64,000 nt of DNA. Source: Prochlorococcus marinus str. MIT 0919. GTDB taxonomy: Bacteria > Cyanobacteriota > Cyanobacteriia > PCC-6307 > Cyanobiaceae. Within the stretch, counting starts at the first letter, position 1. The number at the start of each line of letters is the position of its first letter. Both the position numbers and the translations under genes were made by a program. Of this stretch, positions 17,744 through 57,142 are shown piece by piece. Under the pieces are notes generated by a model. It was given only the letters and a program-made list of their open reading frames with translations, made no database searches and was not told where the DNA came from. The DNA lies in assembly GCF_027359375.1 (NCBI RefSeq), contig NZ_CP114779.1:496001-560000 (forward strand), read 5' to 3'.

Positions 17744-19297
17744 TTGATTAAAGGGAACCTGGCTCTAATACTTCATGCACACCTTCCCTATGTAAGGTCT
17801 GCAGAACCAGGTTCTTTAGAGGAAGACTGGTACTTTCAGGCTCTAATGGAATGCTATTTACCTTTACTAGAGGTAATAGAAAAATCCTTTTACAACAAAA
17901 ATGAAAATCCTAAGCTAACAATATCCCTTTCCCCAACACTGCTTTCCTTGCTCGACGACCAAGATCTAAAAAATCGCTTCCCTGAGTGGATAAAACTTAG
18001 ATTAAAAATTTTAAGAACAAACGCCCAAGCACAAAATCAAGCAGGGGAACATCTAATAAAGGTTATAAACAATCAATTAGATAATTGGCTTAAATGCCAG
18101 GGAGAATTAATTAAAAGATTTATTGAGCTAGAAAGATTAAATGCTATTGATATTCTTACGTGCGCAGCAACACACGGATACCTACCAATTCTAAGAGAAA
18201 ATACAGAGACTGTAAGAGGACAACTTAAAACCGCAGTCAGAGAACATGCGCGTTTTTTTGGGAAAATGCCCCAAGGCATTTGGCTTCCTGAATGTGCATA
18301 TTATGAAGGCCTTGACAATTTATTACGCGAAGCAGGACTTCGTTATTCAGTATTAGATGGGCATGGAGTACTCCATGCAAAACCAAGGCCAAGATATGGA
18401 GTTTATGCACCAATCTGTACTAAAAATGGAATCGCATTCTTTGGACGCGATAGTGACTCAACACTTCCGGTTTGGTCGGCAAAAGAAGGTTATCCAGGGA
18501 ACCAAAGATATCGTGAATTCCATAGAGACATAGGGTGGGATTTGCCTTTAGAACAATTAAACGAATTTGGCATTCAAGATCCCAGACCTCTTGGCTTAAA
18601 ACTTCACAAAGTTAGCGTGCATTCAACCCTGGAAGACAAGAAGTTGTATGAACCAATAGATGCTTTAAAACAAATAAAAGAAGATGCAAAAGACTATCTG
18701 AATGGAAGGAAGAATCAACTATTGAAAATAAACAAGGAAACTAATGTAAATGCATTATTAGTGGCACCATTCGATGCTGAACTTTTTGGCCATTGGTGGT
18801 TTGAAGGCCCATTATTTATAGGAGAGCTTTTCAAGCAAGCAGCCAAACAAAATGTCAGATTTACAACTTTAAAGGAATTTCTAGTAAAAAACTCAGTTTT
18901 ACAATTATGTGAGCCATGTCCATCTAGCTGGGGACAAGGAGGCTTTCATAAATATTGGCTTAATGAAAGTAATGATTGGGTTGTAAACGAATGGAGCAAA
19001 GCTGGCAAAGCAATGGTAAACATTTGCTCAAAGGGTGTTTCAAGCAAATTTGATTTAAGGTTGCTGCAACAAGCTGCTCGCGAACTACTTCTTGCGCAAT
19101 CTTCTGATTGGAGCTTTATTCTAAGAGCAGGTACAACAACAGAGCTTGCAAAAGAAAGGATTCATAGACATTTAAGTAGATTTTGGGAGTTAATAGAGTG
19201 CATAGAAACTGAAAAGGTTATAGAGGAATCAGATATTCTAAAACTAGAAAAAGAAGACTCTATTTTCCCCTTAATTCAAGCAAATGATTGGTGTTGA
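17744..19297 (+). CDS. GH57 family glycoside hydrolase, probable 1,4-alpha-glucan branching enzyme
   Basis: A 517-residue cytoplasmic protein of glycoside hydrolase family 57. Visible are LILHAHLPYVRSAEPG (about 7-22), the nucleophile region GIWLPECAYYEGL with Glu183, and FDAELFGHWWFEGP with the acid/base Asp344. It also has a C-terminal helical domain with LLLAQSSDWSFI (about 450), common in the branching-enzyme subgroup (DUF1957). It would form alpha-1,6 branches in glycogen or a similar glucan; amylase-type activity cannot be excluded. The start is TTG at 17744. Confidence 0.9.
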   Translation: MIKGNLALILHAHLPYVRSAEPGSLEEDWYFQALMECYLPLLEVIEKSFYNKNENPKLTISLSPTLLSLLDDQDLKNRFPEWIKLRLKILRTNAQAQNQAGEHLIKVINNQLDNWLKCQGELIKRFIELERLNAIDILTCAATHGYLPILRENTETVRGQLKTAVREHARFFGKMPQGIWLPECAYYEGLDNLLREAGLRYSVLDGHGVLHAKPRPRYGVYAPICTKNGIAFFGRDSDSTLPVWSAKEGYPGNQRYREFHRDIGWDLPLEQLNEFGIQDPRPLGLKLHKVSVHSTLEDKKLYEPIDALKQIKEDAKDYLNGRKNQLLKINKETNVNALLVAPFDAELFGHWWFEGPLFIGELFKQAAKQNVRFTTLKEFLVKNSVLQLCEPCPSSWGQGGFHKYWLNESNDWVVNEWSKAGKAMVNICSKGVSSKFDLRLLQQAARELLLAQSSDWSFILRAGTTTELAKERIHRHLSRFWELIECIETEKVIEESDILKLEKEDSIFPLIQANDWC

Positions 19298-42547: not shown

Positions 42548-42886
42548 ATGCCTCTAATAAATTTAAAAACATCTATTACAGATATAAAAGGCGAGAAAGA
42601 GGTATTAAAAGCATTGTCTTCTTGTCTAACAAGCCTTACAGGAAAACCAGAGAAATATGTAATGGTGACAATACAAACAGGAGTAAAAATCTTGTTTGGA
42701 GGAAACGATCATGCCAGTTGCCATATAGAGGTTAGGTCCATAGGTTCTCTGAATCCTTCATTAATGTCTCAGGAATTATGTGAACTTATACACGATATTT
42801 TAGGAATAGAAAAAGATCGAATTTACATAAACTTTGAAGATGTTCCTGCAAAAAACTGGGGGTACAACGGTTCCACTTTTGGATAG
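42548..42886 (+). CDS. MIF-like tautomerase (macrophage migration inhibitory factor homologue)
   Basis: A 112-residue protein of the MIF family. It begins MPLINLKTS, so that removal of Met exposes the catalytic Pro; it has MVTIQTGVKILFGG (about 38-51), the substrate region IEVRSIGSLNP (about 59-69) and the C-terminal RIYINFEDVPAKNWGYNGST. Known activity of the family is phenylpyruvate or dopachrome tautomerase; a Prochlorococcus homologue has been studied as a MIF-like tautomerase. Role in the cell unknown. Start ATG at 42548. Confidence 0.92.
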   Translation: MPLINLKTSITDIKGEKEVLKALSSCLTSLTGKPEKYVMVTIQTGVKILFGGNDHASCHIEVRSIGSLNPSLMSQELCELIHDILGIEKDRIYINFEDVPAKNWGYNGSTFG

Positions 42887-43044
42887 TTTAAAGGACTTAC
42901 TTAAAACCATTTACTGAAATCAGAGTTAAATGTGAATTTGCAATCCTACTCAAAATAGAATTTTTTGATTTATTACTGGGCAGAAATATAGGGTTTTGCA
43001 AGATACTACTAAAGTATTAGCCTTTAAAAATTGAAAGTTTTTCT

Positions 43045-46012: not shown

Positions 46013-46037
46013 GCAAAGCTTTTAGCTTTGCTTTTTT
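46013..46037 (+). terminator. Terminator after small gene A
   Basis: Stem GCAAAGC / GCTTTGC (46013-46019 and 46025-46031) with a five-base loop and TTTTTT at 46032-46037, shortly after the stop at 45959. Confidence 0.85.
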
Positions 46038-46053
46038 ATGTCTTTTAAATTCC

Positions 46054-46089
46054 AATAAAAAAACCCCTATATATAGGGGTTTTTTTATT
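46054..46089 (-). terminator. Terminator after pcb copy 2
   Basis: A long near-perfect inverted repeat AATAAAAAAACCCCTATA mirrored as TATAGGGGTTTTTTTATT, about 18 bp per arm including the A/T part. It lies 37 bases after the pcb stop at 46126 on the minus strand, and as it has T-runs on both strands it can also back up terminator 46013-46037. Confidence 0.9.
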
Positions 46090-46125
46090 GGCTCTATAAA
46101 GCGGCAATTAATTAAAGGCCTCTAA

Positions 46126-55107: not shown

Positions 55108-55323
55108 TTAATTGTATTCCCCTGGAACATCATTTTTTCGCACAGTCACTTTCCCAACTTTTTTACCTGAAAATCTCAATAATTCATCGCCTGAAAATTC
55201 ATATCCAAGTTTCAACGCAATTTGAGCTACGTCATCAGCAGTTGAAGAAGCTAGAACTTTCTCTTTAAGGTTCAAGTCACTTTGCATAGTTTGCAGAAAC
55301 GCCTTGAGATCATCCAAAGCCAT
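55108..55323 (-). CDS. Nif11-type leader-like small protein
   Basis: A 71-residue protein that matches the Nif11 family: LKAFLQTMQSDLNLKEKVLA at the start, then a middle helix with DDVAQIALKLGYEFSGDELL. Nif11 domains serve as leader peptides for peptide natural products such as prochlorosins, but here the tail (KKVGKVTVRKNDVPGEYN) lacks cysteines and a Gly-Gly site, so a substrate for lanthipeptide modification is unlikely. Start ATG at 55323. Confidence 0.85.
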   Translation of the reverse strand: MALDDLKAFLQTMQSDLNLKEKVLASSTADDVAQIALKLGYEFSGDELLRFSGKKVGKVTVRKNDVPGEYN

Positions 55324-55385: not shown

Positions 55386-55775
55386 ATGACAAGCTTGCCA
55401 TATTTGATAGGTATCGCACTAATTGAACAAAATGGCGTTAGAACAATGCCAATAGGTGGAAAATCCTTGCAAGAGTCCATAAATAAAAATGATGGCCCTT
55501 CTAATAAAGGTAAGGAGATTGCCTTGGAAATCTTGTTAAGAGTTATGGATAAGAGTCAACAAACAGCAATAAGACAAGCTGCAGGTGGGAAAAGTCTACT
55601 TCTTCTAGAAATGCCTTTAAATGAAATACAAGAAAACTTGCCTAAAATAAAAGCTCAATGGATCTCTGAAGGAAATAATGAGCACTTGCTTTCAGATTTG
55701 AGTGCCATATGTAAAAGCATTTGGAGCATTACTTTTGAAAAGCATAAAGGAGTCCTTATATCACGTTGCTTTTGA
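55386..55775 (+). CDS. Hypothetical conserved protein
   Basis: A 129-residue soluble protein without recognised motifs. It begins SLPYLIGIALIEQNGVRTMP, has a Lys/Gly-rich middle (SNKGKEIALEILLRVMDKSQ) and a final TFEKHKGVLISRCF. Probably a small alpha/beta domain. It lies before rpsU in the same direction, and divergent from the Nif11 gene. Confidence 0.6.
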   Translation: MTSLPYLIGIALIEQNGVRTMPIGGKSLQESINKNDGPSNKGKEIALEILLRVMDKSQQTAIRQAAGGKSLLLLEMPLNEIQENLPKIKAQWISEGNNEHLLSDLSAICKSIWSITFEKHKGVLISRCF

Positions 55776-55849
55776 TTACCTACTTATGAAGTTCATTGGA
55801 ATATTTTTTCTATCAAGTGGTAGGTTTAGTGCTTGATAGGGTTTCTTTT

Positions 55850-56026
55850 TTGACTCAAGTAACTGTTGGAGAGAACGAAGGCATTGAATCAGCGCTTCGT
55901 AGATTTAAGCGTCAAGTTTCAAAAGCCGGAATTTTTGGCGAGTTAAAACGTTTGCGTCACCACGAAACACCTGTTGAGAAATACAAAAGAAAACTTCAGC
56001 AAAGAAGGAGAAGTAGAAGACACTAA
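55850..56026 (+). CDS. rpsU: 30S ribosomal protein S21
   Basis: Bacterial S21, a small basic protein of the 30S platform. The 58 residues from TTG 55850 read [20 protein letters not shown] and go on [20 protein letters not shown], ending RRRSRRH, as in other cyanobacteria. An in-frame reading from 55796 adds 18 residues with no family support. TTG as a start is the usual problem for this gene in this group. Confidence 0.95.
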
Positions 56027-56083
56027 TTAATCAGAGAGGAATACACATATAAATCTATAAATGAAGTTAATCATAAGCAGAGA

Positions 56084-56114
56084 TAAAAAAAGGCCCTCGC
56101 TTAATACGGGGCCT
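56084..56114 (-). terminator. Minus-strand terminator, possible small RNA end
   Basis: Stem AGGCCC / GGGCCT (56091-56096 and 56109-56114) with a 12-base loop and, on the minus strand, a T-run directly after it (the complement of the A-run at 56085-56090). Confidence 0.65.
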
Positions 56115-56151
56115 AGGTGATGGGGATAATTAATTTTTAAACCAAGCGATG

Positions 56152-56180
56152 AAAAAAACAACCCCCATAAATAGCGGGTT
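56152..56180 (-). terminator. Second minus-strand terminator
   Basis: Stem AACCC / GGGTT (56160-56164 and 56176-56180) with a T-run after it on the minus strand (complement of 56152-56158). Confidence 0.55.
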
Positions 56181-56292
56181 TGTCTAGCTGATGGTCAAAG
56201 AACCAACACTTATAGAGTTTACGTACTATTTCCTCAACCAAAAATCAACAAAAGGGGAGATTGGCGGGGTAATGAGGAGCAGTAGGCTCTTT

Positions 56293-56319
56293 AGCCCTTC
56301 TATACTCAAGGGCTTTTTT
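56293..56319 (+). terminator. Plus-strand terminator without an obvious gene
   Basis: Stem AGCCCTT / AAGGGCT (56293-56299 and 56308-56314), eight-base loop, followed by TTTTT at 56315-56319. The nearest plus-strand gene, rpsU, ends 270 bases upstream. Confidence 0.75.
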
Positions 56320-56362
56320 AATCTGTAGTGGCACATAAAAGATTAGGTAGAGTGTGTACCAA

Positions 56363-56410
56363 TAAAAGAACCTCAAAATCTATTTATAAATAGATTTTGA
56401 GGTTCTTTTA
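56363..56410. repeat. 48-base perfect palindrome, probable terminator of the outer-membrane gene
   Basis: Two 24-base arms meet without a loop at 56386/56387. The stem includes AGAACCTCAAAATCTATTTA on one side and its mirror on the other. It lies 80 bases after the stop of the minus-strand outer-membrane gene. Confidence 0.85.
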
Positions 56411-56491
56411 TAATCCCTATTTTTGATTTAACTATGGGAAAGTAGTTTTCAGATAAAAGCTATAAACTTAAATGATTAACAACTGCTGAGA

Positions 56492-57142
56492 CTAGAAACT
56501 AAATCTAATACCAACTTGACCTTTCCAAATATCGAAATTGTCAATATTTGTTCCTTCATTAACATCAATCTCATCTATTCCTTGCCATACAATTTCACCA
56601 AAGAAGTCAGCATTGGAAGCAGTGTCATAAGAAACACCTAATTTAAGTTGTCTAGTACCTGCTGTTTCATCTCCATCAAAACTTGCATCAGTATCAACAA
56701 GACTTTCGCCAAAACCAAAACCTAAGTAAGGAGTCCAGCTGCTGTCGTTCGCCATGTCATAGTAAGCATTTATAAAATATGAATGCACTGAAACATCCTC
56801 TATCACACTAGAACCATCAACTTCAAAAGCGCTAAATGCATAAGAGCCTTCCAGCCTAAAGTTTTTATTAAACCTGTAGCCAAGAGCTGCTTCTCCAGCC
56901 CAATTTCCATCAGTAGAATGGTCAAGATTAGAATGGTTAATATCTTGAGTACTTGAAGCACCTGCTCCTACGGATATATATAGGCCGCTTGTGTCAGTAG
57001 AAACACTCCCACCAAGATCTTCTGAAAGGTCTCCAGTGTAAGTGTCAGCACTTACAGGGATTGAAAGAGATCCTAAAGCAAGAGCGGATGCAATGAATGA
57101 TCTTTTAAGAGACACGAATTGGTAGATAAACTTATAAAACAT
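56492..57142 (-). CDS. Outer-membrane beta-barrel protein
   Basis: A 216-residue protein with a signal peptide (about 1-32, ending SIPVSA) and a beta-barrel body with alternating hydrophobic residues and acidic loops (SSTQDINHSNLDHSTDGNWA, in part). The strands AALGYRFNKNFRLEGSYAF, PYLGFGFGESL and the final WKGQVGIRFSF end in Phe as barrel proteins do. It resembles the opacity/OmpA-barrel group. Function unknown; likely a small porin or surface protein. Start ATG at 57142. Confidence 0.85.
   Translation of the reverse strand: MFYKFIYQFVSLKRSFIASALALGSLSIPVSADTYTGDLSEDLGGSVSTDTSGLYISVGAGASSTQDINHSNLDHSTDGNWAGEAALGYRFNKNFRLEGSYAFSAFEVDGSSVIEDVSVHSYFINAYYDMANDSSWTPYLGFGFGESLVDTDASFDGDETAGTRQLKLGVSYDTASNADFFGEIVWQGIDEIDVNEGTNIDNFDIWKGQVGIRFSF

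Follow-up and report, generated by a model that had tools for sequence, protein, structure and literature searches.

Positions 56027–56491 of the window, a 64,000-nucleotide stretch of the Prochlorococcus marinus str. MIT 0919 genome, form a 465-base gap between rpsU and an outer-membrane protein gene, and sequence comparison indicates that this gap very probably holds a real small-RNA gene. We propose that it is a self-contained gene on the minus strand, one of three clear copies in its own genome of a marine picocyanobacterial family, and we favour the reading that the family consists of multicopy base-pairing small RNAs which would repress translation of the sigma factor gene rpoD4. Prochlorococcus has few regulators. 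In MED4, five sigma factors are described, all cycling with light (PMC2663038). A multicopy small RNA aimed at the start of a sigma factor gene, if true, would be a direct RNA link to daily global expression. The features of the gap and its flanks are as follows.

55850–56026, plus strand: rpsU (ribosomal protein S21; PF01165, 3.9e-20), convergent neighbour
56085–56223, minus strand: predicted small RNA, 3′-end at terminator F
56085–56117, minus strand: F, intrinsic terminator, stem AGGCCC/GGGCCT followed by seven U
56116–56127, minus strand: E, invariant motif AUCCCCAUCACC, complementary to the Shine-Dalgarno/AUG region of rpoD4
56159–56176, minus strand: D, CGCUAUUUAUGGGGGUUG, with an AUGGGG able to pair with CCCCAU of E
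56206–56229, minus strand: putative promoter, placed by alignment position; ATAGTA (56229–56224) and a CACTA..TAGTG counterpart (56217–56206)
56263–56289, minus strand: B, GAGCCTACTGCTCCTCATTACCCCGCC, second copy of the motif, its 19-mer core four mismatches from TGATCCCCATCACCCGGCC
56289–56322, plus strand: A′, antisense terminator at the 5′ border of the cassette, stem 56293–56314 and U-run
56362–56411, no strand: perfect palindrome of 50 nt with U-rich ends on both strands
56492–57142, minus strand: outer-membrane beta-barrel protein gene (PF13505, 5.9e-13), same-strand upstream neighbour

The full cassette would thus run from A′ at its 5′ side through B and a putative promoter after B to an RNA ending in E and terminator F. 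E, together with B if B is transcribed, would pair with the Shine-Dalgarno and start-codon region of rpoD4 and block the start of translation, and D (AUGGGG) may keep E partly closed by imitating the target within the RNA. The predicted 5′-end of the RNA carries a margin of tens of bases, and could lie as far upstream as motif B or hairpin A. Comparison of the copies establishes the family, its spread, the order A′-B-E-F and two marks of a small-RNA gene, namely a conserved, covarying terminator and B-bearing copies that are not tied to a neighbouring gene.

When 60 relatives were searched at the DNA level, 15 genomes, counting the genome of origin, had a match; most of the matches spanned only positions 93–187 of the query (56082–56176 of the window) and lay in varied genomic places. 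Two covariance models were used, R1 built from 21 copies and the wider R2 from 28 sequences. R1 matched the window at 56082–56223 (552082–552223 of the genome, minus strand, E 6.9e-19) and R2 at 56079–56186 (E 5.1e-21). A covariance search of the gap in relatives had been suggested by the first-pass annotation, and it revealed the gap to hold a copy of a dispersed family. The genome of origin had three copies at E≤0.01 and five matches at E≤1; the other two copies, found by R1 and by a search of that genome with the gap, are at 18607–18740 and 42828–42963.

Across the taxonomic family, 176 of 400 genomes matched R1 at E≤0.01, and when eleven complete genomes were rescored with laxer filters all eleven matched at E≤1, with two to ten matches each, some of them weak. 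In a marine Synechococcus-like genus the best R2 match had an E of 2.2e-6 or lower in 18 of 19 genomes and 0.22 in the nineteenth. A class-wide sample gave matches at E≤0.001 in 11 of 116 genomes, ten of which belonged to the same family; the sole match outside it (G423) was weak (7.4e-4). A pattern scan of named genomes returned 67 stretches, 65 of them with cyanobacterial titles, nearly all Prochlorococcus. The two non-cyanobacterial stretches were taken as chance (L094 did not match the models and L116 gave an E of 0.17), and carriage by viruses or phages was rejected, there being one viral pattern match without a model match at E≤1 and no phage match. The model-found copies share common descent and were selected partly for the motif. 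Some copies were found in clusters (G076:C1:89616–140476, G082:C1:415705–448054 and G033:C1:1602698–1865814), and the equal scores of several neighbouring clustered copies suggest recent local duplication.

The stem of terminator F was the sole helix with strong support. In A3, an unfitted alignment of 28 sequences, 94.6% of its cells were paired, with 16 two-sided changes against 4.9 ± 1.6 in shuffles; in A4, a model-fitted alignment of 99 matches from 100 chosen loci (95 distinct rows), 96.7% were paired, with 67 two-sided changes against 19.3 ± 3.2. Five pairs showed a two-sided change in A4, a number reached by 129 of 500 shuffles. Covariation was sought in the D-E helix (AUGGGG/CCCCAU) and none was found, its pairing being invariant instead; the helix was missing from the A3 consensus and lost in some Synechococcus copies. 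Folding of single sequences gave an unremarkable z-score of −1.7 for the window RNA, and −3.6, −3.3 and −0.02 for the copies at L010, L079 and L057.

No member of the family reached the gathering score of any Rfam 15 model, in 15 family loci and the window, so the family is probably unannotated in most genomes. We take the 2510659-bp genome among the relatives to be CC9605, and others to be MED4, AS9601, MIT9301, MIT9211, SS120, MIT9313 and WH7803. It is doubtful, though a fair minority of the probability lies there, that the family has already been named, as Yfr103 or as some other small RNA of Voigt 2014, in which case only the present copy would be new. Yfr103 is described as 290–328 nt long, with an imperfect palindrome located between −58 and −29 relative to its start site, has seven paralogs in CC9605, and comes with a strain list that, as given there, includes SS120, MIT9313 and WH7803, with MED4, AS9601, MIT9301 and MIT9211 absent (PMC5069720). 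Like our family, it is multi-copy, dispersed in Prochlorococcus and marine Synechococcus, and preceded by an imperfect palindrome; in the 2510659-bp genome seven R2 matches reached E≤0.01, and B would fit the palindrome as published if the RNA starts 29 nt after B. However, in a comparison made by description, neither the published length nor the published strain list fits. In the 2510659-bp genome four copies bear B, and they measure 142–195 nt from the assumed start or 236–280 nt from hairpin A, so that predicted copies differ from the length described; three of the seven R2 matches there lack B; and the distribution also differs, the family being present in the four genomes that we assign to strains off the list as published. 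Furthermore, Cyano-2 also gives seven matches in that genome, five of them over the cut-off.

Cyano-2 (RF01702) is a rival candidate for the identity of Yfr103. It resembles our family in being multi-copy in marine Synechococcus but does not overlap the element, and it had no match in the genome of origin, none at gathering score in the gap and none in 12 genomes other than the 2510659-bp one. The genomes taken as SS120, MIT9313 and WH7803, all on the published Yfr103 list, were among those without it. Cyano-2 was observed just upstream of two family copies on the same strand (L057, 1823–2026; L221, 465–511, minus). Cyano-1 (RF01701) had no gathering match in the window and a single match in the 15 family loci, on the other strand and outside the element (L057, 1324–1385).

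Yfr2–Yfr5 are likewise small, multi-copy picocyanobacterial RNAs at unfixed positions, and in SS120 yfr2 is given as a neighbour of rpsU; they differ in a GGAAACA loop and a length of 89–95 nt, and the family copies in the genome taken as MED4 lie elsewhere (PMC1242208). These copies, at 348847–348969, 772354–772485 and 936705–936838, coincide with no ncRNA of Table 1 of PMC2518516 or Table 2 of PMC1242208, the tables being the parts of those papers compared. Yfr11 and Yfr16 were rejected as MED4 members, as the matches lie elsewhere. The copies in the genome taken as MIT9313 are at 1102823–1102966 and 1083056–1083204. Cluster 9 of PMC1242208, given there as six sequences with none in MED4 and no conserved position, may be an early sighting of the present family or of Cyano-2.

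Motif E has the invariant sequence UCCCCAUCACC across the family, with the core CCCCAUCACC, and B carries the same core. A motif B within four mismatches of TGATCCCCATCACCCGGCC was present upstream in 72 of 98 distinct copies, 35 of them exact (shuffles, about 0), and the spacing between B and E was mostly 150–160 nt; in the window copy it is 152 nt. The shared core would make sense if B were transcribed. A TANNNT peak 54–59 nt after B, where one 5-base bin holds 11 of 34 non-redundant copies, suggests instead that the RNA starts after B, and a common motif peak sought upstream of hairpin A was not found.

An exact search of seven genomes with GGGTGATGGGG, the complement of E, gave 35 sites. 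Seven, one per genome, lie at the start codon of one gene (AGGAGGCCAGGGTGATGGGGATCC...), and 26 are inside model matches or less than about 60 nt from them, some of these matches being weak (E up to 0.12); the remaining sites were one B-like stretch without a match and one elsewhere. Since the reversed pattern gave eight matches over the same seven genomes, about one site of this 11-mer per genome is the chance rate; what does not look like chance is that the site is kept at one start codon and that the complementarity extends further. The protein of the candidate target gene is a sigma factor (TIGR02997). In the 1657990-bp genome the target gene contains both qPCR primers published for PMM1697/rpoD4, the forward primer lying at base 686 from the ATG used here and at base 746 as numbered in PMC2921402, so the annotated rpoD4 start may differ. 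PMC3142192 names PMM1697 among the Yfr1 candidates that were discarded. A small RNA acting on rpoD4 was not reported in those parts of the literature that were searched.

The Shine-Dalgarno and start region of rpoD4 reads AGGAGGCCAGGGUGAUGGGGAUCC. Among the 25 best rpoD4 homologues from 28 genomes, GGGTGATGGGGAT was found at the start in 15 and was absent from seven, two of which (in G007 and G026) differ at the last base alone; the other three could not be framed. The codons GGG ATC CTG were identical in 22 of 22 genes, GGG being required by the pattern, while at 204 other invariant residues of rpoD4 mean codon identity was 0.53 and only one residue reached at least 0.95.

The E segment of the window was predicted to pair with the rpoD4 start of its own genome at −35.4 kcal/mol, a value equalled by none of 2824 window stretches of 90 nt on both strands, the locus left out (best −28.8). 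Against the same background, no stretch was as good as the consensus B (−39.1), and three were as good as the degraded B of the window, which paired weakly (−25.7). Eighteen copies of other genomes gave −25.4 to −39.1 with their own rpoD4, values that have no background, and some reached only −25.4 to −29.7. Eleven positions of E pair with the target as it is in G000 in at least 97% of 98 copies; at position +8 C is found in 77%, yet 99% of copies still pair. After +8 there is a mismatch in nearly all copies (4% pair) and then G (99%). Full-length duplexes had z-scores of −3.0 to −3.5 against 90 start regions of the window; their energy was rejected as target evidence, as shuffling the rpoD4 start sometimes gave a better score.

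Redundant base-pairing small RNAs that act on one regulator mRNA are known in the Qrr RNAs and in DsrA and RprA, which act on rpoS. Our family is like them in that several similar RNAs share one unchanging seed directed at the beginning of an mRNA for a regulator or sigma factor, and unlike them in sequence, lineage and genes and in that its pairing is predicted.

A different reading of the same motifs is that B and E are protein-binding sites in DNA or RNA, that the rpoD4 start is kept for a cis hairpin of its own, such as a thermosensor, and that the complementarity comes from common descent or from one binder recognising both. Start hairpins whose stem includes the AUG and whose loop contains GGGG are indeed predicted at rpoD4 in L304 (1456–1545), L286 and L305; such a hairpin is a possible cis regulator, and self-folding alone could account for the codon conservation. 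B is moreover an imperfect palindrome, and part of E is base-paired in the predicted fold of the RNA. We nevertheless consider this reading unlikely: the palindromic partner of ATCA in B varies (TAAT, CAAT, GGAT, TCAT) while the side of B complementary to rpoD4 is invariant, and E is not palindromic.

An antisense terminator A′ was found no more than 80 nt upstream of B in 54 of 68 B-bearing copies (39 of 53 after thinning), against none in two control stretches and 4.5 (3.8 thinned) in shuffles, which places the plus-strand terminator at the 5′ border of the cassette. By the same strict rule the sense terminator F was called in 42 of the 68 copies (34 of 53 thinned). The first-pass annotation had proposed small RNAs on both strands. 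For the minus strand this was borne out by the dispersed, conserved family, its covarying terminator and the even neighbour orientations of B-bearing copies; a plus-strand RNA was not confirmed, the conserved A′ fitting either an antisense RNA or mere insulation. One elaboration, which we regard as quite improbable, is a two-strand device in which the sense RNAs of several copies together repress rpoD4 by pairing with the hairpin at its Shine-Dalgarno/AUG region and antisense RNAs ending at A′ act as sponges for them, with copy number and read-through from neighbouring genes setting the sigma factor level over the light-dark cycle. In the antisense RNAs, GGGUGAUGGGGAUC would imitate the start of rpoD4.

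Of the 68 B-bearing copies, 58 had a called neighbour on each side, and their orientation pairs were distributed 16/15/14/13; orientations were taken from simple ORF calls, and one side was uncalled in the other ten. The 26 copies without B had skewed neighbours (13 −/−, 7 +/−, 4 +/+ and 2 −/+), a skew partly due to orthologous loci. As the orientations around B-bearing copies are even, the hairpins do more than terminate the genes beside them. It is most improbable that the gap lacks an RNA gene and that its hairpins are the terminators of rpsU and the outer-membrane gene. In favour of that view, the palindrome directly follows the outer-membrane gene, read-through from rpsU would be stopped by A′ and a terminator scan alone is at chance; against it, F faces away from both genes, F and E are conserved together at many unrelated places and the B-bearing copies are indifferent to neighbour orientation. 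Termination of the flanking genes, which was to count against small RNAs in the gap, holds for the palindrome only.

The arms of the palindrome, 25 nt each, are fully complementary with no spacer between them; it was initially reported as 48 bases rather than 50, and its fold has a z-score of −10.4. A search of the genome of origin with the whole gap found no second site for it. It is most likely a bidirectional terminator of the outer-membrane gene and lies outside the RNA family. Of the hairpins described in the first-pass annotation, the plus-strand terminator is that of A′ (z −3.2). Two minus-strand terminators had been called: the one at 56117–56085 (−14.6 kcal/mol, z −3.1) is conserved and covarying, whereas the other, at about 56192–56152 (−10.4 kcal/mol, z −2.0), corresponds to D, and its U-run is not kept in homologous copies while GGGGnTTG is. 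In a simple consensus scan of 55500–57000, which gave one terminator-like site against 0.8 expected in shuffles, hairpin density was not above chance; the argument is built on conservation and on the palindrome. At gathering score Rfam gave only a tRNA in the whole window and nothing in the gap. A permissive search of the gap gave 39 matches up to E 10 (best 1.6e-5), none above gathering score and many on the palindrome, and these were rejected as palindrome artefacts or chance.

The congener G002 has a family copy in its own rpsU-outer-membrane gap; in G001 that gap is present and no model match was found inside it. An alignment of the window with G002 showed 65% identity in the RNA part, 48% in the A-B stretch, 52% between B and the RNA, and 41% and 43% in the outer flanks. 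The RNA part is thus better conserved than the flanks.

Several further elements were observed near family copies. A Nif11-domain gene (PF07862) is encoded at 55108–55323 of the window, two genes before rpsU, and a Nif11 homologue in G005 directly adjoins a family copy (L071). In three of 15 loci scanned, a glutamine-II riboswitch aptamer was found no more than about 1 kb from a family copy (L010, 603–657; L070, 1313–1371; L079, 563–620). Short palindromes resembling CACCANNTNTGGTG recur both beside and inside copies (L054, L056, L057, L062 and L081), chiefly in Synechococcus. Weak R2 matches on both strands at 46030–46115 of the window (E 0.013 and 0.05) are probably a plain hairpin. A second element, GGTGATA/TGG..CCCCATCACC(C/T)GGCCCGGAGTGC..GGG with a U-run, has the same E-F motif and was found at L164, L184, L185, L162 (near 1500) and L225 in genomes G095, G268, G036, G033 and G238; it looks like a single orthologous locus and is possibly another RNA aimed at rpoD4.
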